Of a stretch of DNA of 42,149 nucleotides, positions 7,023-26,649 are shown piece by piece. The stretch is from Pirellulaceae bacterium. Lineage in GTDB: Bacteria > Planctomycetota > Planctomycetia > Pirellulales > Pirellulaceae. How positions within the stretch are numbered: the stretch's first letter is position 1; the number at the start of each line of letters is the position of its first letter. Both the position numbers and the translations under genes were made by a program. Below the pieces are notes generated by a model. That model was given only the letters and a program-made list of their open reading frames with translations, had not been told where the DNA came from and did not search any database. Location: the NCBI GenBank assembly GCA_022448315.1, contig JAKVCA010000041.1:1-42149 (forward strand), in the 5' to 3' direction.

Positions 7023-7300
7023 TTCCGCCTGCGATCCATCGCATGACGCGAGTCTCGAACTGGGGCTGTGCGAACGGGTCCTGAAGTTTTTTGTGAACAA
7101 ATGGTCAGTTCGGTTGAATTTGGTGCGTTTTCCCGCAAGTGATTCAATAACCTTTGCCCCACGAAGAAGGTCAAGGTCGGTCGGCGCACCCAACCGACAA
7201 CTCCCAACCAAGAGTGGGCAAACATGGATGGTGCGAAAGAAGAGTGCGTTCTTCTTCCGCTGTCCTTCAGTAGTTGCCTCAAGAGAATAGAAAAACCGGC

Positions 7301-10300
7301 ATGATGGTTTTCAATCAATTTCGATGGAGCGTCTCAACGCCGACAAGGTGCGATGTGAGGCAGCGGATAATCTTGTACGGCATTTTGCTTGGCCTGATGG
7401 CAAGTGGAATCGGACTGAATGCGAAGGAGGCGGTGGATTTTGACCTTGAAGTTCGCCCCATCCTGGCAGATGCCTGTTTCCGTTGTCATGGACCCGACGA
7501 GAATACGCGAGAGGCGGACCTCCGTCTGGACATGGAATCGGAACTGCTGTCGGATCGCGGTGGTTATCGCATCGTCGAGCCGGGCGATCCTGCCGAGAGC
7601 CATCTGCTTCAACGGATTCGAGGCGAAGGGGAGGAGCGGATGCCACCCTCCGATGCCCAACGCCAGCTGACGGAAGACGAAATCTCGACCCTGACCCGAT
7701 GGGTGGAGGAAGGGGCCGACTGGAAGCAACATTGGGCGTTCGAGAAGCCTGTTGCCTCATTGCCTCCGATCGACCCAAGCGGGAAATGGGACCGGAATCC
7801 CATTGACAGTTTTGTTCGTCATCGCCGAGCGGAGGCTTGGAGCCCCACGGTGGCGGCTTCGCCAGAAGTTATTTTGAGAAGAGTCTGGTTTGATCTGGTA
7901 GGCATCCCTCCGTCTCCCGAGGATGTGCTTCGGTTTCTTGATGATCCGTCCCCCGATCGTTTGGAGCGGCAGCTGGATCGCCTGTTTGCCAGTCCCCATT
8001 ACGGTGAAAAGATGGCGCGAGGCTGGCTCGATTCATCTCGGTACGCCGATACAAACGGGTACCAGTACGACACCGAACGCACGCAGTGGCCGTGGCGAGA
8101 CTGGGTGATCGAAGCGTTCAATCGTCACTTGCCTTACGACCAGTTTGTCGTTGAGCAGATTGCGGGGGACTTGCTTCCCGATGCTTCGCCAGAGCAGGTA
8201 CTTGCCACGGGCTTCAATCGAAATCATGGCATCACGATTGAAGGAGGGGTGATTGACGAAGAATACCGCACGGAGTACGTCGTGGATCGAGTGGTGACGA
8301 CCTCCACCGTGTTCCTAGGAATGACCGCCCTATGTGCGCGATGCCATGACCACAAGTACGACCCGCTAAGCCAGAAAGAGTTTTACCAACTTTTCGATTT
8401 CTTCAATCAGGTTCCTGAACGTGGGCACAATGGCTTTGCCCCGCAAATGGCTGTTGTCCCTTCGGAACTCGAAGACGATCGGCAACGCCTTGAACGACTC
8501 AGAGAAAGACAGGCAGCCAGCGAGCCAGAATGGACGCAGCGGCAAACCTCATGGGAGGCTGATTTATTGCGGCGAAAGGTGTCGCCGCCCGTGGTTTGGC
8601 GGCCCATCGTTTTGGAGGGCGTTGAAGCGTCCAGTGGTGCCAAGCTCGTCCCGCAAGAGGACGGTTCTTGGTTGGCGACCGGGGGAAGCAACGGGCACGA
8701 TAAATATGAACTCGTTTGGAGCCTTCCGGTGTCTCGAACACTCAACTGGCTCAGAATCCAAGCCTTGACCCATCCTGATCTGCCTCACAACGGGCCGGGG
8801 CGGGCCTTCAATTCCAATTTTGTCCTCAATGAGATCAAGCTGTTTCAGCAGGTCGGGAACAAATGGGTCCCGGTGCCTCTCGCCGAAGTTGTGGCGGATT
8901 ATTCTCAACGGGGTTTTGAAATTGAAAAAGCGATCGACGGCAATCCGTCTACGGGATGGGCCGTCGATGGCCCGACGCGAAAAGAAAACCGGGTGGCGGG
9001 TGTTCGGCTGAAACAACCGTTGACGGTCGAAACTGCAAACGCATTGAAACTGGAATTGCATTTCAATTATGGGACCTCCCACTCGATCGGACGCGTCAAA
9101 TTGTCCATGTCCGAGGCGGACCGCCCGCAGTTGTCTGATGATCCGTGGCAAGCACTAGAAATTGCTGAGACGGATCGTACCGCAAAGCAGAAGGAAGATC
9201 TCCGCCGTCTTTTCATCGAATCCGGATCCGCTCCGGAGGATTTGGTGCAGTCGGTTGCTGAGGCGCGATCCTTGGAGAATCGAATTCGCGGATTGGCCTC
9301 TCGGCAGGTCAATGTGATGGTGATGAGGGAGATGCCGAACCGGCGTACGACCCATGTTCTTGACCGTGGCAGTTACGATCAACCGGGGGAGGTGGTAGAG
9401 GCTGGCGTTCCTGCCATTCTCGGTGGTTGGTCGGAGGCATTTCCGAGCAATCGATTGGGTTTCGCGCGGTGGCTGGTCGCTGAAGAACATCCCCTCACTT
9501 CCCGAGTCGCGGTCAATCGTTGGTGGCAGGCGTGTTTCGGCGTGGGGCTGGTGAAATCGTCCGAAGATTTTGGAACTCAGGGAGAACGTCCCTCGCATCC
9601 GCAGCTTCTCGACTGGTTGGCGGTGAACTTTCAGGAGCGTCAGTGGGAGTTGACCTGGTTGCAGAGAAAAATGTTGACAAGTTCGACTTACGGGCAATCT
9701 TCGCGATGCTCACCATCAAAGCAGGCCGAGGATCCGGAGAATCGTTGGCTGCAAAGGGGACCCTCACGCCGGCTGCATGCCGAAGAGGTCCGGGATGCCG
9801 TACTCGTCGCGAGTGGTCAGTTGATTTCGAAAATTGGCGGTCCGAGCGTTTATCCTTATCACCCCGAAGGTTTGTGGCTTGAGATCAACAATCGTCCCAA
9901 CTACTCCAAGGCGTATCCTCATCAGAAAGGTGAAGGACTCTATCGGCGAAGCCTGTATACATTCTGGAAACGGACCGTACCGCCTCCAACCCTTCAGACT
10001 TTCGATGCGCCGGAAAGGGAGTTTTGTGTGGTGCGGCGGTCGGCAACCAACACGCCGCTGCAGGCATTTGTTTTGCTTCATGATCCGCAATTCGTTGAAT
10101 CGGCCCGGCAGCTTGCCATTCGTGTCCTGCGTCGACCTGATCTCAAAAATGACCGTGAACGTCTGACGTTTGCCTGCCTCGCAACCATAGGGCGGCGACC
10201 TGAACCGGAGGAGACAAGGATCCTTCTGGAATTGCTTGAAAAACGGCGGGTCGAGTATCAGTTAGATCCGGAAGAGGTGGCGGGTCTTTTGTCAGTGGGA

Positions 10301-10402
10301 GCTTCGGCCACACCGGAGGAACTTGGAGATGCCGAGGTTGCTTCCTGGATGATCATTTCACGATTGCTCATGAATTTGAGTGAGACCATAACGCGAGGCT
10401 AG
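7301..10402 (+). CDS. planctomycete cytochrome / DUF1549 / DUF1553 protein
   Basis: Large exported protein of about 1033 residues. After an N-terminal hydrophobic segment (RIILYGILLGLMASGIGLNA) comes the PSCyt1 domain with a CFRCH haem c-binding motif at residues 59-63 and the RMPP segment. The DUF1549 (PSCyt2) domain follows with WFDLVGIPPSPEDV and a second CxxCH, CARCHDHKYDP, at about 345-349. A discoidin-like insert (residues about 450-590) precedes the C-terminal DUF1553 domain with NRWWQACFGVGLV and SRRLHAEEVRDAVL. The family is linked to polysaccharide use in planctomycetes, but its reaction is not established. I choose the ATG at 7301; an in-frame TTG at 7274 is possible. It ends 7 bases before the DUF1501 gene, its usual partner. 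Confidence 0.9.
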   Translation: MMVFNQFRWSVSTPTRCDVRQRIILYGILLGLMASGIGLNAKEAVDFDLEVRPILADACFRCHGPDENTREADLRLDMESELLSDRGGYRIVEPGDPAESHLLQRIRGEGEERMPPSDAQRQLTEDEISTLTRWVEEGADWKQHWAFEKPVASLPPIDPSGKWDRNPIDSFVRHRRAEAWSPTVAASPEVILRRVWFDLVGIPPSPEDVLRFLDDPSPDRLERQLDRLFASPHYGEKMARGWLDSSRYADTNGYQYDTERTQWPWRDWVIEAFNRHLPYDQFVVEQIAGDLLPDASPEQVLATGFNRNHGITIEGGVIDEEYRTEYVVDRVVTTSTVFLGMTALCARCHDHKYDPLSQKEFYQLFDFFNQVPERGHNGFAPQMAVVPSELEDDRQRLERLRERQAASEPEWTQRQTSWEADLLRRKVSPPVVWRPIVLEGVEASSGAKLVPQEDGSWLATGGSNGHDKYELVWSLPVSRTLNWLRIQALTHPDLPHNGPGRAFNSNFVLNEIKLFQQVGNKWVPVPLAEVVADYSQRGFEIEKAIDGNPSTGWAVDGPTRKENRVAGVRLKQPLTVETANALKLELHFNYGTSHSIGRVKLSMSEADRPQLSDDPWQALEIAETDRTAKQKEDLRRLFIESGSAPEDLVQSVAEARSLENRIRGLASRQVNVMVMREMPNRRTTHVLDRGSYDQPGEVVEAGVPAILGGWSEAFPSNRLGFARWLVAEEHPLTSRVAVNRWWQACFGVGLVKSSEDFGTQGERPSHPQLLDWLAVNFQERQWELTWLQRKMLTSSTYGQSSRCSPSKQAEDPENRWLQRGPSRRLHAEEVRDAVLVASGQLISKIGGPSVYPYHPEGLWLEINNRPNYSKAYPHQKGEGLYRRSLYTFWKRTVPPPTLQTFDAPEREFCVVRRSATNTPLQAFVLLHDPQFVESARQLAIRVLRRPDLKNDRERLTFACLATIGRRPEPEETRILLELLEKRRVEYQLDPEEVAGLLSVGASATPEELGDAEVASWMIISRLLMNLSETITRG

Positions 10403-10409
10403 ATGTCCT

Positions 10410-11879
10410 ATGAATCCTTTGCATCAATATCAGCTGGGTCTGACTCGGCGAACTTTGATTCAACGGTCAGGGTTGGGGGTAGGTGCGACCGCACTTGGGA
10501 CCCTAATGAACCCAAGTCGGCTATCTGCGACGCCGCGTGCCGCGGTTGAAGAACCCGACGCGCCCCACGGTGGTCTTGCGGATCTGCCGCATTTTGCTGC
10601 CAAGGCCAAACGGGTTATCTACATGTTTCAAAGTGGTGCGCCCTCGCAAGTCGATCTCTTTGATCATAAACCGACACTGGAATCGTTGGATGGAACCGAG
10701 CTGCCAGATTCGATTCGTCAAGGGCAGCGGCTGACGGGTATGACCTCGGGGCAAAAGCAGTTTTTGGTGACTAAAAGTTTTTCGCCATTCCGACAACACG
10801 GTAACAGCGGGATGTGGCTCAGCGATCTCCTCCCTTACCATGCCAAAATTGCCGACGATATGTGTGTGATCAAATCGGTTCATACCGAGGCTATCAATCA
10901 TGATCCCGCCATCACGTTTTTTCAGTCCGGCAATCAACAGCCGGGCCGGCCATGTTTCGGATCGTGGTGCAGTTACGGGCTGGGAAGCGATACGGCGGAT
11001 TTGCCCGCTTTTGTGGTTCTCCTGTCGGAATGCACTGACAATCAGGCCCAGCCGCTCTACTCCAGACTTTGGGGCAGTGGTTTCCTGCCCTCCAACCATC
11101 AGGGCGTCAAATTTCGAGGTGACGGGGAGCCGGTGCTCTACCTCAAAGACCCCACAGGGGAATCTGTAAAAAATCGCCGCGAGTTTCTCGATACGCTCGC
11201 TGCCCTGAATGAAAGGCAACTTCAGTCCTCGGGGGATCGGGAAATTCAGACGCGGATGGCGGCATATGAAATGGCGTATCGCATGCAGATGTCGGTTCCG
11301 GACCTCGTGGATTTCAGTGATGAGCCTGAGCGGACGTTTGATCTTTATGGCGAAGACGCCAAAACGCCGGGAACCCATGCGGCGAATTGCGTGTTAGCGC
11401 GCCGGCTCGCGGAGCGAGGGGTGAGATTCATTCAGTTGTACCACCGCGGTTGGGATCATCACGGTAATCTGCCGGGGCGGCATCCGACACAAGCCCGCGA
11501 GACGGATCAAGGATCTGCGGGGCTGATTTTAGACCTCAAGGAGCGCGGACTTCTTGAAGATACGCTCGTGATATGGGGTGGAGAATTCGGTCGTACGGTC
11601 TACGCGCAAGGAGGTCGTTCGGCCTTTGGTCGTGACCACCATCCGAGGTGTTTTTCGATGTGGCTTGCCGGTGGAGGGATTCAGCCCGGAATGAGTTTCG
11701 GTGAGACCGATGATTTTTGCTACAACGTGGCCAAGGACCCTGTGCACGTCCATGATCTTCATGCAACCTTGCTTCACTGCCTGGGGATCGACCATGAGCG
11801 TCTGACCTACAAGTTCCAGGGACGACAATATCGATTGACCGATATCGCGGGTGAGGTTGTGAAGCCGATCCTCATCTGA
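10410..11879 (+). CDS. DUF1501 family protein with Tat signal
   Basis: A 489-residue member of the DUF1501 family (alkaline-phosphatase/sulfatase-like fold). The N-terminus carries a twin-arginine export signal, TRRTLIQRSG at residues 12-21, followed by a hydrophobic stretch GLGVGATALGTL. Family segments include YMFQSGAPSQVDLFDHKP near residue 70, HTEAINHDPA, the HRGWDHHGNLP metal-binding-like region near residue 345, WGGEFGRT and the C-terminal GRQYRLTD followed by GEVV. The start ATG at 10410 is 7 bases after the stop of the DUF1553 gene, so the two are co-transcribed; these proteins are nearly always encoded as a pair in planctomycetes. Substrate is unknown. A disrupted PAS remnant begins on the other strand only 3 bases past its stop. 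Confidence 0.93.
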   Translation: MNPLHQYQLGLTRRTLIQRSGLGVGATALGTLMNPSRLSATPRAAVEEPDAPHGGLADLPHFAAKAKRVIYMFQSGAPSQVDLFDHKPTLESLDGTELPDSIRQGQRLTGMTSGQKQFLVTKSFSPFRQHGNSGMWLSDLLPYHAKIADDMCVIKSVHTEAINHDPAITFFQSGNQQPGRPCFGSWCSYGLGSDTADLPAFVVLLSECTDNQAQPLYSRLWGSGFLPSNHQGVKFRGDGEPVLYLKDPTGESVKNRREFLDTLAALNERQLQSSGDREIQTRMAAYEMAYRMQMSVPDLVDFSDEPERTFDLYGEDAKTPGTHAANCVLARRLAERGVRFIQLYHRGWDHHGNLPGRHPTQARETDQGSAGLILDLKERGLLEDTLVIWGGEFGRTVYAQGGRSAFGRDHHPRCFSMWLAGGGIQPGMSFGETDDFCYNVAKDPVHVHDLHATLLHCLGIDHERLTYKFQGRQYRLTDIAGEVVKPILI

Positions 11880-13387: not shown

Positions 13388-16072
13388 ATGTCACCATGGG
13401 CTCACCACTTTAAGGCTGTCGGGGAAAGCGATCCTCAGGTGAACTCTATGGAGGAGGCGTTCGAGTTATGGAATACCGCTTGTAATGCCTATTTTTCCAG
13501 TCGCGGCGAAGCACCTGAAGTGTTAACCGATAGCCTGGGCTTTCCTAAAACCTCCGCGTCGTCCACGGGTCCTCATGACTCGACGGTCGACCCACCGGTC
13601 CCCTTGTTTCAAGTCTTGCTTCTCGCCGTATTGCGATGGCCCACCGGTGACTTCTTGCAAAGCCAACGGTTGCGCTCCTGGTTGATGGAAAGCTCGCCAA
13701 CGTCGCTCCGGCCTTTTTGGGACATTCTCTCTCGCGGGTTGGTTGATGAAAAAGGAAACGCGGGTTGGATGGAAACCGCGGGGGAATCACTGCTTTATGT
13801 CGAGAAAGCATGGCAGGCTTCATCCCCGGAGTTGTCTTTGCTGGAGTGGTGGCAGCAGACGTTCTATCCACAGCAAAAAAAACGCTACGGTGTTTTTCAT
13901 ACACCCGAAGAGTTGGCGCAGCTCACCTGGAGTCGGCTTCCGGAAACATGTTGGCAAAATCCAGAAGGGGGCCTCATTTTGGATCCGGCCGCGGGGACTC
14001 AAGTTTTCGTCTGCGCTGCACTTCGGCAGCTGGCTGCGACTCATAGGGAGTCGGCTTCAGATTCAGGAACCCTTTGCCAGAATCTTTGTTGCCTTCTTGA
14101 AAGGGTGGTGACGTTCGAAATTTCCGCGCCTGCCTGGGTTCTCGGTTTTCTTGAGGTCGGTAAGACCTTGAGAGAGTTGGACTGCGATTTGCAACGTTCC
14201 GTCCCGTTGAAATTCTGGCGGGGCGACGCACTGAATCCGATGGGGGAATCAAATGCGTCAACAGAAATGATTCAGGATATGATCCGGCAAGACTACAGGT
14301 GGGTGGTCGGCAATCCCCCCTACTCGTCACGCGTCGAGGACCAAAACCCGTGGATTCTGCAATTGCTCAAAGGGCAAGTGGAGGGGCCAGGAGGTCAGAT
14401 CAATTACTATGAGGCTCAGGGAAAGCCGCTGGGTGAGCGTAAGAGTTGGCTTCACGACCTCTACGTCTGCTTCTTCCGGATGGCACAGTGGTGGACTTGT
14501 GCGGCCGAGACGTCGACGGTGGCGTTTGTGACCAATCGTGGGTTCATTGAAAACGTGACGTTTCGCGGCATGCGTGAATCCTTGAATGAACAGTTTGATC
14601 AGATTGATGTCCACGACCTGCACGGTGATGCCTCGGATTCGTCGCCCAATCCCGCAGGAGGATGGTTTGGAATCAAGACGTTAACGAGCCTGGTGGTCAT
14701 GTCCTGTAAGGGGGCCGCGGTAGAGAGGCGTCCAAGCGTGCGTTGGCTCGAGCCAATTACCCCTTCCGCATTGCATAGCGACCGCTTGTCAGAACGATCT
14801 CTGCCCCACACCGTGACTCCCGAAGCGCCCCAGTTTGAATGGCACCCTGATGCGTACAAGGCTCGAGGAGAATTTGATCGGGGGTGGTGCCTCACCGATA
14901 TTTTTCGGGAGTCGGGCTCGCCGATTGTGACCGCCCGTGATTCTCTTGCGATTGCCTTCACTTCACAGGAGCTGGTCGGCCGATTGCAGGAATTTCTCGA
15001 TGACAGAGTCAACGACGATGTGCTCCGTCAAAAGTACTTTCCGCGATCCCGTTCGAGACGTTTCCCCCGAGGAGATACTCGGGGGTGGAAATTGCACGAA
15101 GCCAGAGAATTTCTTCGAGAACGTGCAAAACGTGTTCCTGACCTTGAAACATGGATTCGACCGATTCATTATCGCGCCTACGATTTAAGGCACATCATCT
15201 GGGTCGAAGAATTAATTGACTGGCCGCGTCGACAGGTCATGGCCAGTTTGGAATCGGGGCGGGATTGGGCTTTGGTCGCACGTCGGCAGAGTCCTGTGGG
15301 GCAATCGGCCAATTTCTTCACCGCAACTCGCCAACTCGTGACGGATGGTGTGCTGCGATCCGATAATCGTGGGAACGAGACCGTTTTTCCGCTCCGCTGG
15401 CAGAGCCGCGAGGGCACGCTTGAGAGCAATCTGAATCCCGTGTTTGAGGCTTGTGTTTTCAAACACCTGAGGGGCTCAGGTGATCAGGGCCACTCCAGGT
15501 GTGGAGGGCTTTCGGCAGAACATCGTGAGTCGCTTTTGGGGTATGTGTTCGCATGGCTTCATTGTCGCGAATATCAACATCGATTTCGTCATCAATTGGT
15601 CAGGCGTTACCCTCGAGTTCCTCTGGTGAAAGACACGGATTTTTTTGCTGAAATGTCGGCGGCGGGTTTGGATATGCTCCGCCTTCACGCGGGAACTGAG
15701 CGTGCGACTGAAACCTCGAGTATTCGCGGTGGGGATCAACGCAGCATGCAGGCTCCTCGCTTTCCCGAGGCGAAGGTCCCCAGAGGGTGGCCGGAATTTG
15801 ATGGGAAAGAAATCATTCTCGATGGGGACGGCCATCGAATTTCAGTGTCGCGTGAGGTTTGGGAGTTGCGAATCGGGGCCCATCAGGTTGCAAGAAAGTG
15901 GTTGAAGGATCGGCGAGCGTTTTTCGGCGATCCCGGGATGATTGCAAACTACAAATCTCTACTCGTGTGTCTCGAGGCCACCTTGGAAGCGCAAAAGCGG
16001 GCGGACGCGATAGTGGCGTCTGCGGGAGGTTGTGCCCGTGTGTATGAAAATCTCGTGCCACCCATGAAGTAA
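13388..16072 (+). CDS. solitary type ISP-like DNA adenine-N6 methyltransferase with specificity domain
   Basis: An 894-residue protein resembling the C-terminal half of type ISP restriction-modification enzymes. Residues about 150-190 resemble the coupler (FYPQQKKRYGVFHTPEEL). The methyltransferase follows: AdoMet motif I as LDPAAGTQVF (198-207), and catalytic NPPY at 309-312, which transfers methyl to adenine N6. The C-terminal part (about 500-860) matches the ISP target-recognition domain, with WIRPIHYRAYDLRHI, WPRRQVMASLESG, FTATRQLVTDGVLRS, YVFAWLHCREYQHRFR and YPRVPLVKD. The helicase and Mrr-like nuclease expected in full-length enzymes of about 1500 residues are absent, and no neighbour encodes them. 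Motif I has Q where most relatives have G. It could be an epigenetic regulator or a remnant; the intact frame favours function. Confidence 0.82.
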   Translation: MSPWAHHFKAVGESDPQVNSMEEAFELWNTACNAYFSSRGEAPEVLTDSLGFPKTSASSTGPHDSTVDPPVPLFQVLLLAVLRWPTGDFLQSQRLRSWLMESSPTSLRPFWDILSRGLVDEKGNAGWMETAGESLLYVEKAWQASSPELSLLEWWQQTFYPQQKKRYGVFHTPEELAQLTWSRLPETCWQNPEGGLILDPAAGTQVFVCAALRQLAATHRESASDSGTLCQNLCCLLERVVTFEISAPAWVLGFLEVGKTLRELDCDLQRSVPLKFWRGDALNPMGESNASTEMIQDMIRQDYRWVVGNPPYSSRVEDQNPWILQLLKGQVEGPGGQINYYEAQGKPLGERKSWLHDLYVCFFRMAQWWTCAAETSTVAFVTNRGFIENVTFRGMRESLNEQFDQIDVHDLHGDASDSSPNPAGGWFGIKTLTSLVVMSCKGAAVERRPSVRWLEPITPSALHSDRLSERSLPHTVTPEAPQFEWHPDAYKARGEFDRGWCLTDIFRESGSPIVTARDSLAIAFTSQELVGRLQEFLDDRVNDDVLRQKYFPRSRSRRFPRGDTRGWKLHEAREFLRERAKRVPDLETWIRPIHYRAYDLRHIIWVEELIDWPRRQVMASLESGRDWALVARRQSPVGQSANFFTATRQLVTDGVLRSDNRGNETVFPLRWQSREGTLESNLNPVFEACVFKHLRGSGDQGHSRCGGLSAEHRESLLGYVFAWLHCREYQHRFRHQLVRRYPRVPLVKDTDFFAEMSAAGLDMLRLHAGTERATETSSIRGGDQRSMQAPRFPEAKVPRGWPEFDGKEIILDGDGHRISVSREVWELRIGAHQVARKWLKDRRAFFGDPGMIANYKSLLVCLEATLEAQKRADAIVASAGGCARVYENLVPPMK

Positions 16073-23740: not shown

Positions 23741-25318
23741 ATGGAGGGTCGTACTTCTCATCCACGGCTTCGCTTCGGGATTGGTCTCCTCGTGGTTTCT
23801 GCCTTCGTTGGCTGGATGCTTATTGCTCTTCCCGCACAACTGACCGAAACGCTGGACCGTGTGAGAACCTGGGGGGATGGATGGTTTTATGCCTATTTGG
23901 TCCTCCTCGTCGCCGGTGGGGTGTTTTTTGCTTCAGGGTCCATCTGGGTGATCGGTCTGTTGTGGAGTCGGACTCGGCGTAAGAATCAGAAACAGGTTTC
24001 GCGTCAGCAGAATCCGAGTGCTTTGACCCCGAGGCAGCAAATCAAAGAACTCGATGACAACCTTCAGACGGTCGACGATTTGACCCGAGACGATCGGGTT
24101 GGGACCCAGGTGAGGGAGCGGGTTCAAGAGGACGTCGAAGGCATACTTGCAAAACGCGAGACGCGACAGCTTGAAATTGTCGCCTTTGGAACCATTTCAA
24201 GCGGCAAGAGCACCTTGCTCAATCTGCTCGCCGGCCGCGATGCCTTTCGGTCAGATTTAAGGGGAGGAACCACCACACAACGAAATGAAGTGAAATGGCC
24301 GGATGACGACCGTGTGGTTCTTGTGGACACTCCCGGACTCGCGGAGGTGGATGGCCAATCCCATCTCGCTGTTGCGGCAAAAGCGGCTCGTGATGCGGAT
24401 GTGGTACTCGTGGTGATCGATGGTCCCATGCGCGATCACGAGTTTTCCCTCATTCGTGAATTGGTCGAGATGGAGAAGCGTTTGGTGGTTTGCCAGAATA
24501 AATCAGACTGGTTTGATTTGGAGGATCGCGGCAAAATTCTCGACCAGGCGCGTCAAAAACTCGCGACGATTGACAGAAAACTTGAGGTCGTATGGGTTCG
24601 CGCCCAATCGGTCACTCGTGCTCGTATTCGGCAATTGGCAGATGGGCAACAAGTGGAGGAGGAGATTCAAGAGCCGCCAGATATTCAACAGCTCTCAACT
24701 TGGATGCTAAAAACCTTGAGTGACGAGGGCGATCGCCTTCTGATGGCCAATCTGCTTTTGAGGTCTCGTGGTCTGGTCGAAGAGGCTCGTGATGAAGTGC
24801 AACGGAGTCTGGATCAGAAAGCCTGGAAAATTGTTGATCGTGCCATGTGGGGGGCCGGGGGAGCCGCAGCTCTGAGTCCTTTGCCCGTGGTGGACCTGCT
24901 TGCTGGAGTTACCATTTCCTCAAAACTGGTGGTGGATCTGGCAAAAGTCTACCGACAAGAAGTGGATCTCGACGTCGCCATGCAGTTACTGAGCCAGCTC
25001 GGAAAAAATCTGCTCGGCATTTTAGGGGTGAGCCTTGCGGCTCCGACGGTGGCGACGCTCGCAAGTCAGATCTTCAAGACGGTTCCCGGGGTTGGCACGA
25101 TGGCGGGTGGCGTGCTGCAGGGTATCACGCAGGCCTTGATTACACGCTGGATCGGCGCCGTATTTATCGAGTACTTCAAAAATGAAATGCAACGTCCGGA
25201 AGGTGGACTGGTGGGGCTTGCCCGCCGTCAATGGAATCGGTTGACCACGGTCGATGAACTCCGTCGCATCGTGAGCCAGGGGCGGGAGAAACTCGTGTCC
25301 AAGGAGCAGGACTCATGA
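23741..25318 (+). CDS. membrane-anchored DUF697-type GTPase (first of a tandem pair)
   Basis: A 525-residue Era/dynamin-like GTPase. Two transmembrane segments lie at about residues 12-31 and 50-75, followed by a charged linker. The G domain has P-loop GTISSGKST (150-158), a threonine-rich switch GGTTTQ (175-180), DTPG (196-199) and NKSD (253-256). The C-terminal third, after a helical linker, is hydrophobic and glycine-rich (GAGGAAALSPLPVVDLLAGV, VDLAKVYRQEVDLDVAMQLL, GGVLQGITQALITRWIG), matching DUF697 as in E. coli YcjF. Such proteins probably act in membrane shaping or envelope maintenance; the role is not established. AAGGAA precedes the ATG. Its stop overlaps the start of the next GTPase gene (ATGA), so stoichiometric, coupled synthesis is likely. 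Confidence 0.85.
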   Translation: MEGRTSHPRLRFGIGLLVVSAFVGWMLIALPAQLTETLDRVRTWGDGWFYAYLVLLVAGGVFFASGSIWVIGLLWSRTRRKNQKQVSRQQNPSALTPRQQIKELDDNLQTVDDLTRDDRVGTQVRERVQEDVEGILAKRETRQLEIVAFGTISSGKSTLLNLLAGRDAFRSDLRGGTTTQRNEVKWPDDDRVVLVDTPGLAEVDGQSHLAVAAKAARDADVVLVVIDGPMRDHEFSLIRELVEMEKRLVVCQNKSDWFDLEDRGKILDQARQKLATIDRKLEVVWVRAQSVTRARIRQLADGQQVEEEIQEPPDIQQLSTWMLKTLSDEGDRLLMANLLLRSRGLVEEARDEVQRSLDQKAWKIVDRAMWGAGGAAALSPLPVVDLLAGVTISSKLVVDLAKVYRQEVDLDVAMQLLSQLGKNLLGILGVSLAAPTVATLASQIFKTVPGVGTMAGGVLQGITQALITRWIGAVFIEYFKNEMQRPEGGLVGLARRQWNRLTTVDELRRIVSQGREKLVSKEQDS

Positions 25319-26649
25319 GCGAAGGTCCCACCACGGATTCGAAATTTGCTGAGGCACGAGATTCTCTTCAGCAGACCCTCGGCAAATTGCGAGGTTGCTC
25401 GGATCGTGAACGCAAGGAGATGCAACGCGAGTTTTCTCAGCTCAATGAGATGCTCTCCAAGCTTGACAAAGGTCAGGTCGAAATCGTCGTCTTTGGCGAA
25501 ATCAGTACGGGCAAGTCGGCGTTGATCAACGCTCTGATCGGCGAAGCCGTTGCGGATGTGGACGTGCAGGGGGGCTGGACCCGTGATGTTCAAAGTTCGG
25601 AGTGGAAAGCATGTGCGTATCGTGTGCCCGGGCTGAATGACTCCGGCGTTCTTCTAGTCGATACCCCTGGGATCAACGAGGTTGAAGGCCAGCAGCGGGC
25701 TTCGTTGGCCGAAGAAGCGGCCCGCCGAGCAGACTTGATCCTGTTCGTGACCGATTCGGATCTCAATGAAATTGAGCATGATGCATTGAAGCATCTTGCG
25801 TCGTTGAAAAAGCCCTTGCTGATTGTGCTGAACAAAAAGGATCTTTATTCCGAGGATCAACGGAATCGACTTCTGAATGTGTTGACTCAAGAGCGTTTGC
25901 CCGGCGTGCTTCCAACCGACCATGTGGTTTTGACCAGCGCGGACCCACGTGAGGTGGAGTACATCATCGAAGATGCCGAGGGGAAGACACGCCGGGAGTG
26001 GCGCAGGCCTCAACCCGATGTGCAGGAGTTGAAAGAGAAGATTCTTGAGATCCTCGATCGTGATGGGTTGGCACTGGTCGCACTCAACGCCGCCATGTAC
26101 GCCGCGGATCAGACGGATCGCATCGCTGCGCTGCGGATTGAATTGCGAAATCATCTCGCGAATCGCGTGATCGGAGGATATGCGGCGGTCAAGGCTCTGG
26201 TGGTCGGTTGGAGTCCGGCGGCGGTCGATATCATCGGGGGTGGGCTGGTGGATGCCTCCATGGTTGGTGTCCTTGCGAAAATCTATGGACTTGATCTCTC
26301 TTGGCAACACGCCAGGAAACTGGCGAGTGCCATTGGACAGGCGACCGGGTGGGTCATCCTGGGCGAAACGGTTTCGTATCTCGGGGCATCCTTGTTCAAG
26401 GGGCTGACGTTGGGATTGGCGACTCCCTTGACGGCCATTCCTCAGGGAGCGGCATCGGGCTTTGCCTCCTACATTGTGGGCCAGTCGGCCAAGTACTATT
26501 TTGAGCATGGCGCTTCGTGGGGTGGACGATCGCCCAAAGCAGTTGTTCAACAGATTCTCGATCAGACCGACCGCGATAGTGTGTTGGGGCATTTGAAGGA
26601 CGAGATCAAGCAAAAAATGCTCTTCAATCCGCACGCCCGAAAGTCTTGA
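25315..26649 (+). CDS. DUF697-type GTPase (second of a tandem pair)
   Basis: A 444-residue GTPase related to the preceding gene. It lacks the N-terminal membrane anchor and instead begins with a charged helical segment (residues about 10-52, possible coiled coil). G motifs are GEISTGKS (61-68), a QGGWTR switch (85-90), DTPG (116-119) and NKKD (173-176). The C-terminal part is glycine-rich and hydrophobic (AAVKALVVGWSPAAVDIIGG, VGVLAKIYGLDLSWQHARKL, ATPLTAIPQGAASGFASYIV), again DUF697-like, and could insert in or lie on the membrane. It overlaps the first gene by four bases (ATGA). Different switch sequences suggest a heteromeric pair rather than redundant copies. mutS follows about 145 bases on, with no sign that function is shared. 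Confidence 0.85.
   Translation: MSEGPTTDSKFAEARDSLQQTLGKLRGCSDRERKEMQREFSQLNEMLSKLDKGQVEIVVFGEISTGKSALINALIGEAVADVDVQGGWTRDVQSSEWKACAYRVPGLNDSGVLLVDTPGINEVEGQQRASLAEEAARRADLILFVTDSDLNEIEHDALKHLASLKKPLLIVLNKKDLYSEDQRNRLLNVLTQERLPGVLPTDHVVLTSADPREVEYIIEDAEGKTRREWRRPQPDVQELKEKILEILDRDGLALVALNAAMYAADQTDRIAALRIELRNHLANRVIGGYAAVKALVVGWSPAAVDIIGGGLVDASMVGVLAKIYGLDLSWQHARKLASAIGQATGWVILGETVSYLGASLFKGLTLGLATPLTAIPQGAASGFASYIVGQSAKYYFEHGASWGGRSPKAVVQQILDQTDRDSVLGHLKDEIKQKMLFNPHARKS

Follow-up and report, generated by a model that had tools for sequence, protein, structure and literature searches.

A conserved pair of paralogous DUF697 GTPases in Pirellulales, one of them membrane-anchored, and its possible likeness to paired bacterial dynamins

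The two genes described here lie in a stretch of 42,149 nucleotides (contig JAKVCA010000041.1 of assembly GCA_022448315.1, positions 1 to 42,149, forward strand; hereafter the window) from a Pirellulaceae bacterium. Both are complete open reading frames on the plus strand and start with ATG. Gene A (23741–25318) encodes a membrane-anchored DUF697 GTPase of 525 amino acids and gene B (25315–26649) an unanchored DUF697 GTPase of 444 amino acids, as judged from the reading frames, profile matches and predicted models. The stop codon of A overlaps the start codon of B in the sequence ATGA (25315–25318, +), confirming the four-base overlap noted in a preliminary description of this DNA, and a Shine-Dalgarno-like AAGGAG for gene B can be read inside gene A (25301–25306, +), 8 bases upstream of the ATG of B. 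Promoter-like sites near the two genes are at chance level (1 found, 1.4 expected); terminator-like sites (7 found, 3.7 expected, standard deviation 1.7) are scattered within and before the genes. A and B are the only DUF697 genes in their own genome, the assembly of which is 96.95% complete and consists of 126 contigs.

Each protein carries an intact set of GTPase motifs, all encoded on the plus strand. The G1 motif or P-loop of A (GTISSGKS) occupies residues 150–157 (24188–24211), followed by G3 (DTPG) at residues 196–199 (24326–24337) and G4 (NKSD) at residues 253–256 (24497–24508). The corresponding motifs of B are GEISTGKS at residues 61–68 (25495–25518), DTPG at residues 116–119 (25660–25671) and NKKD at residues 173–176 (25831–25842). 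Each motif of A is present in 77 of 78 A rows, that of the window counted, while for B the G1 motif is found in 70 of 71 rows and G2, G3 and G4 in all 71 (G4 being scored as [NT]KxD). Both are thus full GTPases with conserved motifs, as the preliminary description had stated, and the difference it saw in their switch sequences also holds: the G2 motif is GGTT in A and GGWT in B, and the switch and other family-specific residues, although different between A and B, are conserved within each family. The motifs do not single out dynamins, since intact G1 to G4 are also found in other GTPases. The C-terminal part of both proteins is a DUF697 domain (PF05128), as previously proposed, covering residues 341–491 of A (24761–25213, +, E 1.2e-28) and residues 263–420 of B (26101–26574, +, E 1.4e-24), with scores of 100.4 and 87.1 bits against a curated cut-off of 27.7.

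The two proteins differ at the N-terminus. A begins with two hydrophobic segments on the plus strand, the first at residues 12–30 (23774–23830; KD19 of 2.37 at residue 12, within model helix 9–42) and the second at residues 53–71 (23897–23953; KD19 of 2.25 at residue 53, within model helix 46–89). After trimming to the profile match, 78 of 78 A rows but 0 of 71 B rows score above 1.6 in a hydrophobic window ahead of the P-loop, and at a limit of 1.4 all 78 A rows have at least two hydrophobic segments. A hydrophobic N-terminal segment is likewise absent from the untrimmed B frames of the window and of genomes G019, G410, G613, G059 and G277 (G and L numbers are our own for genomes and loci), and from the B of G433. 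The two-helix anchor is therefore a property of the first protein only, in agreement with the earlier description.

A and B are 28% identical over 362 amino acids (E 1e-33), and their profiles align over 396 columns with a probability of 100 in hhalign. On this sequence evidence we regard them as diverged paralogues, so that the term 'dissimilar', earlier applied to the pair, is too strong. In a tree built by a quick method, the A and B sequences each form one side of a single branch with a support of 99; the placement of G433_A, G433_B and the Anabaena row, all on long branches, is unsure. The A and B subtrees appear similar by eye, in an informal comparison, and vertical inheritance seems to fit better than a mobile or defence element. 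The latter was considered and rejected: A has no plasmid match, B has five weak plasmid matches, PHROGs gave matches to the GTPase domain only, and the PADLOC matches to LeoA and LeoBC do not extend beyond the N-terminal half.

Natural fusion of A and B was not found in any of 74 loci with both genes, where the two are always separate frames. In one locus (L230, G540, contig C59, 5500–9300) A (a frame of 533 amino acids) and B (446 amino acids) share the same reading frame, interrupted only by one TAG codon. Read-through of this TAG would yield a fused A–B protein; as it stands, there is no fusion. A different arrangement is present on the Anabaena cylindrica plasmid NC_019774.1 (L220, 3558–6143, +), where the C-terminal part of a protein annotated as Hsp70 matches B with 26.7% identity over residues 34–413, the GTPase/DUF697-like part being fused to an Hsp70-like part.

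The two genes are nearly always associated. In a search of 60 genomes including their own, 27 had matches to A, always two in number, one of A type and one of B type. When 241 genomes of the same family were searched with each protein, A was found in 92, B in 95 and both in 90, so that 90 of the 97 genomes with either gene have both (these counts leave aside eleven genomes with weak matches only, near 1e-9). Six of the seven genomes with a single gene have it at a contig end. A alone was seen in G479, where the contig stops 100 bases beyond the A match, and in G484, to which we return below. B alone was seen in G490, G495, G497, G449 and G480, always at a contig end, which may mean that just the assembly lacks the partner; B alone on a continuing contig was not found in the genomes searched. 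In the genomes with both genes, 87 of the 91 copies of A have B downstream in the same orientation; of the other four, one is due to a contig break (G003) and three are unlinked (G019, G410 and G613). One genome of the family, G643, holds two A–B pairs, on its contigs C39 and C56.

The association extends beyond the family. In an order-wide sample of 396 genomes, B has a match at 1e-15 in 92, of which 91 contain two or more matches; in the exception, G780, B lies at a contig start. Of 46 matching genomes outside the family, 36 have the places of both genes listed. The genes are adjacent in 31, and the other five consist of three contig breaks (G741, G756 and G801) and two unlinked cases (G059 and G047). 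Among titled genome records, B adjoins A in the same orientation in 74 of 80 A loci, four with B cut by the contig end; these loci are the best 80 of 139, their flanks reach at most 8 kilobases and many end early. Two of the remaining six (L093 and L142) stop at the contig edge and four (L098, L103, L140 and L153) have no B within 8 kilobases, the first three of these corresponding to G410, G613 and G047. Conserved adjacency, the check to which the preliminary description had pointed, is thus borne out, and its converse, the independent occurrence of the two genes in most relatives, is not what the genomes contain.

Adjacent genes can be lost in one deletion, and co-occurrence alone is therefore weak evidence for a shared function. 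The cases in which the genes have separated are more informative. In six of the genomes searched, A lies on a continuing contig without an adjoining B, and five of these (G019, G410, G613, G047 and G059) have B elsewhere. These five occupy four places in the tree (G410 with G613; G019; G059; and G047 as L140), each amid linked relatives, although evidence from six cases does not amount to strong statistics. The surroundings of the pair also change: no third conserved partner was found, the commonest other neighbour family being present in 28 of 80 loci, with neighbour frames picked mechanically and within flanks of at most 8 kilobases, so that a more distant partner is possible. A member of this family resembles, by eye, the DUF1501 proteins of the window. 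The changing neighbours, the retention of B when unlinked and the apparently old division of labour between the two proteins (see below) suggest that the pairing is more than linkage, and that A and B work as partners is well supported.

The translational coupling proposed earlier is less general. The ATGA overlap is real in the window, but only 21 of 70 pairs could have an in-frame overlap of four bases, and the median spacing of A and B, measured between match ends, is 80 bases. Coupling in the window is therefore incidental to the pairing.

Across the phylum the pair is rare. A clear pair is present in 10 of 392 genomes sampled, the own genome counted, where the three best first-look candidates of each genome were scored; five more genomes have weak matches near 1e-9. 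A few carriers lie outside the order, among them G277, from a different class, and G433, from a different order within the class. In both of these A has two hydrophobic N-terminal segments and B has none. The split into an anchored and an unanchored partner would, judging from these distant sequences, be old. In G433 the pair is divergent (L179, 5000–9313, −), and a frame of 470 amino acids, amidase-like by eye, lies between the genes and overlaps A' by four bases. Two records titled Phycisphaeraceae (L145 and L150) also carry the pair. DUF697 itself is present in 72 of the 392 phylum genomes; in 20 of 20 such loci inspected outside the class (L192–L211, flanks of 1.5 kilobases), no P-loop of the form G....GK[ST] was found in the frames over the DUF697 match. 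The pair is mainly a speciality of the order Pirellulales, a name taken here from the titles of records and the labels of the tree. A general role as planctomycete endomembrane machinery was accordingly rejected, and the earlier link to the internal membranes of planctomycetes is not supported, since so few phylum genomes carry the pair and 144 of the 241 genomes of the own family show neither gene.

AlphaFold2 monomer models were obtained with a mean predicted local distance difference test score (pLDDT) of 88.0 and a predicted template modelling score (pTM) of 0.80 for A, and of 85.7 and 0.70 for B. In both, helices are predicted ahead of the GTPase domain, with a 63-residue helix directly after it and then the helical DUF697 part, the middle of which is poorly predicted; this order would suit the neck and trunk of a dynamin. 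Among the full-length matches listed by Foldseek, the top ones belong to the dynamin superfamily: those for B are BDLP, mitofusins and immunity-related GTPases, and those for A are immunity-related GTPases, the Campylobacter Cj-DLP pair (5owv) and IniA. VIA-align superposes residues 1–277 of B on Fzo1 (Z 16.8, root-mean-square deviation (rmsd) 5.6, 251 aligned) and residues 95–406 of A on mitofusin-1 (MFN1; Z 16.2, rmsd 6.4, 264 aligned), and both alignments span the flanking helices. The B profile also gives weak matches from the preceding helix to the P-loop with BDLP (6.2e-7), mitofusin-1 (4.4e-4) and Slr0869 (0.0011). A solved structure matching the DUF697 part of B by sequence was not found, the best 60 of 73 matches stopping before profile position 250.

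The Pfam family Dynamin_N is over its cut-off in both proteins (A 42.6 bits, B 56.1 bits), and IIGP is just above its cut-off of 24 for B (26.4 bits) and below it for A (13.9 bits). PADLOC matches A to LeoA (1.9e-16, LeoA positions 12–279 of 559) and B to LeoBC (4.4e-24, LeoBC positions 30–193 of 601), these matches covering the N-terminal half or less and not the whole length; the NCBIfam models of DynA and LeoA are far below cut-off for both proteins. Immunity-related GTPases such as Irga6 and IRGB10 are of similar size, but their identity is about 12–16% and the rmsd of those matching A exceeds 20 Å.

A close parallel is offered by the paired bacterial dynamin-like proteins (Cj-DLP1/2, LeoA/LeoBC, IniA/IniC, DynA/DynB and BDLP1/2). 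According to passages of the published accounts, bacterial dynamin-like genes mostly stand side by side as pairs in operons (PMC6104087; operon pairing also in PMC4159319), and the two Campylobacter proteins join in a 2:2 tetramer, assembly of which triggers GTPase activity and lipid binding (PMC6104087). Like these pairs, A and B are two related adjoining GTPase genes (Cj-DLP1/2 are 24% identical from switch 1 on, A and B 28%), with helices ahead of the GTPase domain and a helical C-terminal part containing hydrophobic stretches, and Foldseek lists Cj-DLP, LeoA, IniA or BDLP for them at full length. Unlike these pairs, A and B are shorter, have DUF697 instead of a recognised trunk, and one partner, A, has a permanent N-terminal hairpin. 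The likeness to paired dynamins, offered only loosely in the preliminary description, gains weight from the Foldseek and PADLOC matches and from the published operon pairing.

We therefore consider it possible, with slightly less than an even chance, that A and B are the two subunits of one small, dynamin-like heteromeric membrane GTPase. In such a machine, A and B would have arisen by an old gene duplication. A would sit permanently in the inner membrane through its N-terminal hairpin, its GTPase domain facing the cytosol, as suggested by the hydrophobicity and the flanking positive charges, and B, lacking an anchor, would be recruited through A. The helices before the GTPase domain, the 63-residue helix and the helical DUF697 region are predicted to form a short neck and stalk. 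GTP would then drive the assembly of A with B, most simply via the GTPase domains or the stalks, and this assembly might bend, bridge or stabilise the membrane as paired bacterial dynamin-like proteins do. A dynamin-like membrane role is plausible on these grounds. The more specific proposal, that the pair represents a minimal dynamin-like heteromer of an undescribed class, with DUF697 as its membrane-acting stalk and a hairpin permanently anchoring one partner, appears rather unlikely at present.

Several observations weigh against a dynamin-like pair. MMR_HSR1 (A 58.9 bits, B 68.1 bits) outscores Dynamin_N for both proteins, so that here too their GTPase domain departs from that of the paired bacterial dynamins. 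In the B profile search of solved structures, Der and Era profiles score above dynamins, and the best fits of the isolated GTPase domain are to Era, EngB and translation GTPases (Z about 18). Superposition of the whole chains on dynamins is poor, with template modelling scores of about 0.2–0.35 and rmsd of 13 to 39 Å. Genome G484, an 85% complete draft, has no B found although the contig carrying A continues, and L153 has A without B within 8 kilobases, the flanks of the locus being all that was covered. Finally, the closest whole-length family, slr1306, has been linked in print to CO2 uptake and not to remodelling, as far as the title of the relevant paper goes. Because Der, Era and MMR_HSR1 score higher, we speak of a pair that may work like a dynamin pair and not of a proven member of the dynamins.

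The main alternative is that A and B are a functional pair acting as a regulatory switch, in which B would act as a sensor or be loaded with GTP and, via the anchored A, govern a membrane transporter or an envelope-stress response. It comes to the fore because slr1306 is tied to CO2 uptake and E. coli ycjF is induced together with ycjX. The cyanobacterial family NF049994 (slr1306_fam) is the best whole-length NCBIfam match of both proteins, with 174.8 bits over residues 71–486 of A and 126.5 bits over residues 34–343 of B, but both scores are far under the cut-off of 490 bits. Our DUF697 search finds a DUF697 protein in E. coli, which we take to be YcjF. YcjF is partnered with the GTPase YcjX, GTPase and DUF697 being in separate proteins, unlike A and B, each of which contains both; TIGR01620 matches A weakly (24 bits against a cut-off of 160). 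As for function, slr1306 is a putative component of the CO2-concentrating mechanism according to the title of a 2008 paper cited in PMC5472144, and a passage of PMC8125068 describes ycjF and ycjX as phage-shock-associated and rising together, along with phage-shock genes, during phiX174 infection. Among the neighbours in the 80 loci, however, no gene family for transport or stress was conspicuously conserved, and two full GTPases with predicted neck helices would exceed the needs of a simple switch. We hold a switch to be doubtful, though it deserves to be kept in mind.

It is less probable still that A and B have separate jobs, as two homodimeric GTPases merely co-inherited in one small operon. 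The differing switch and family-specific residues, each conserved in its own family, would suit such an arrangement, as would the poorly conserved overlap and the possibility that G484 has A alone. Yet B has been retained in five of the six searched genomes where A left B, in four places of the tree, small as these numbers are, and in each of the five genomes with B alone the gene lies at the end of its contig. That the two are ribosome-associated GTPases of the Era/Der kind which happen to be membrane-tethered is very improbable: the isolated GTPase domain gives its best superposition with Era (A: Z 18.6, rmsd 2.5, 163 aligned) and Der/EngA and Era match by sequence, but the equivalog models stay below cut-off (GTPase_EngA, A 54.0 and B 54.2 against 306.7; PRK00089 Era, A 47.1 and B 53.8 against 237), DUF697 makes up the C-terminal halves, Pfam lists neither a KH nor any other ribosome-binding domain at E up to 1, and the pair is absent from most phylum genomes sampled, Era and Der being near-universal.

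If the pair does act like a dynamin pair, the principle would extend to a smaller architecture and offer a lead on slr1306 and YcjF, where the same domain occurs. To our knowledge, no mechanism for DUF697 is known. Our literature search revealed no evident publication on a DUF697 GTPase or on such a pair, with passing single mentions only. Should DUF697 be a membrane-acting stalk, this would be the first mechanism for the domain, and slr1306 and YcjF would be linked to membrane remodelling. Carriers of the pair include Blastopirellula marina, Adhaeretor mobilis and Bythopirellula polymerisocia, presumably cultured strains, in which a conserved pair of one anchored and one unanchored GTPase is open to direct testing.

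Elsewhere in the window, a Type ISP restriction-modification-like enzyme is encoded at 13388–16072 (+), with a match to PF18135 (E 1.5e-47) and an N6 methylase match. The region 7274–11879 (+) encodes a PSCyt1/PSCyt2/PSD1 protein followed by a DUF1501 protein, and in many related loci the surroundings of A and B contain frames that resemble, by eye, PSCyt1/PSCyt2/PSD1 and DUF1501 proteins.

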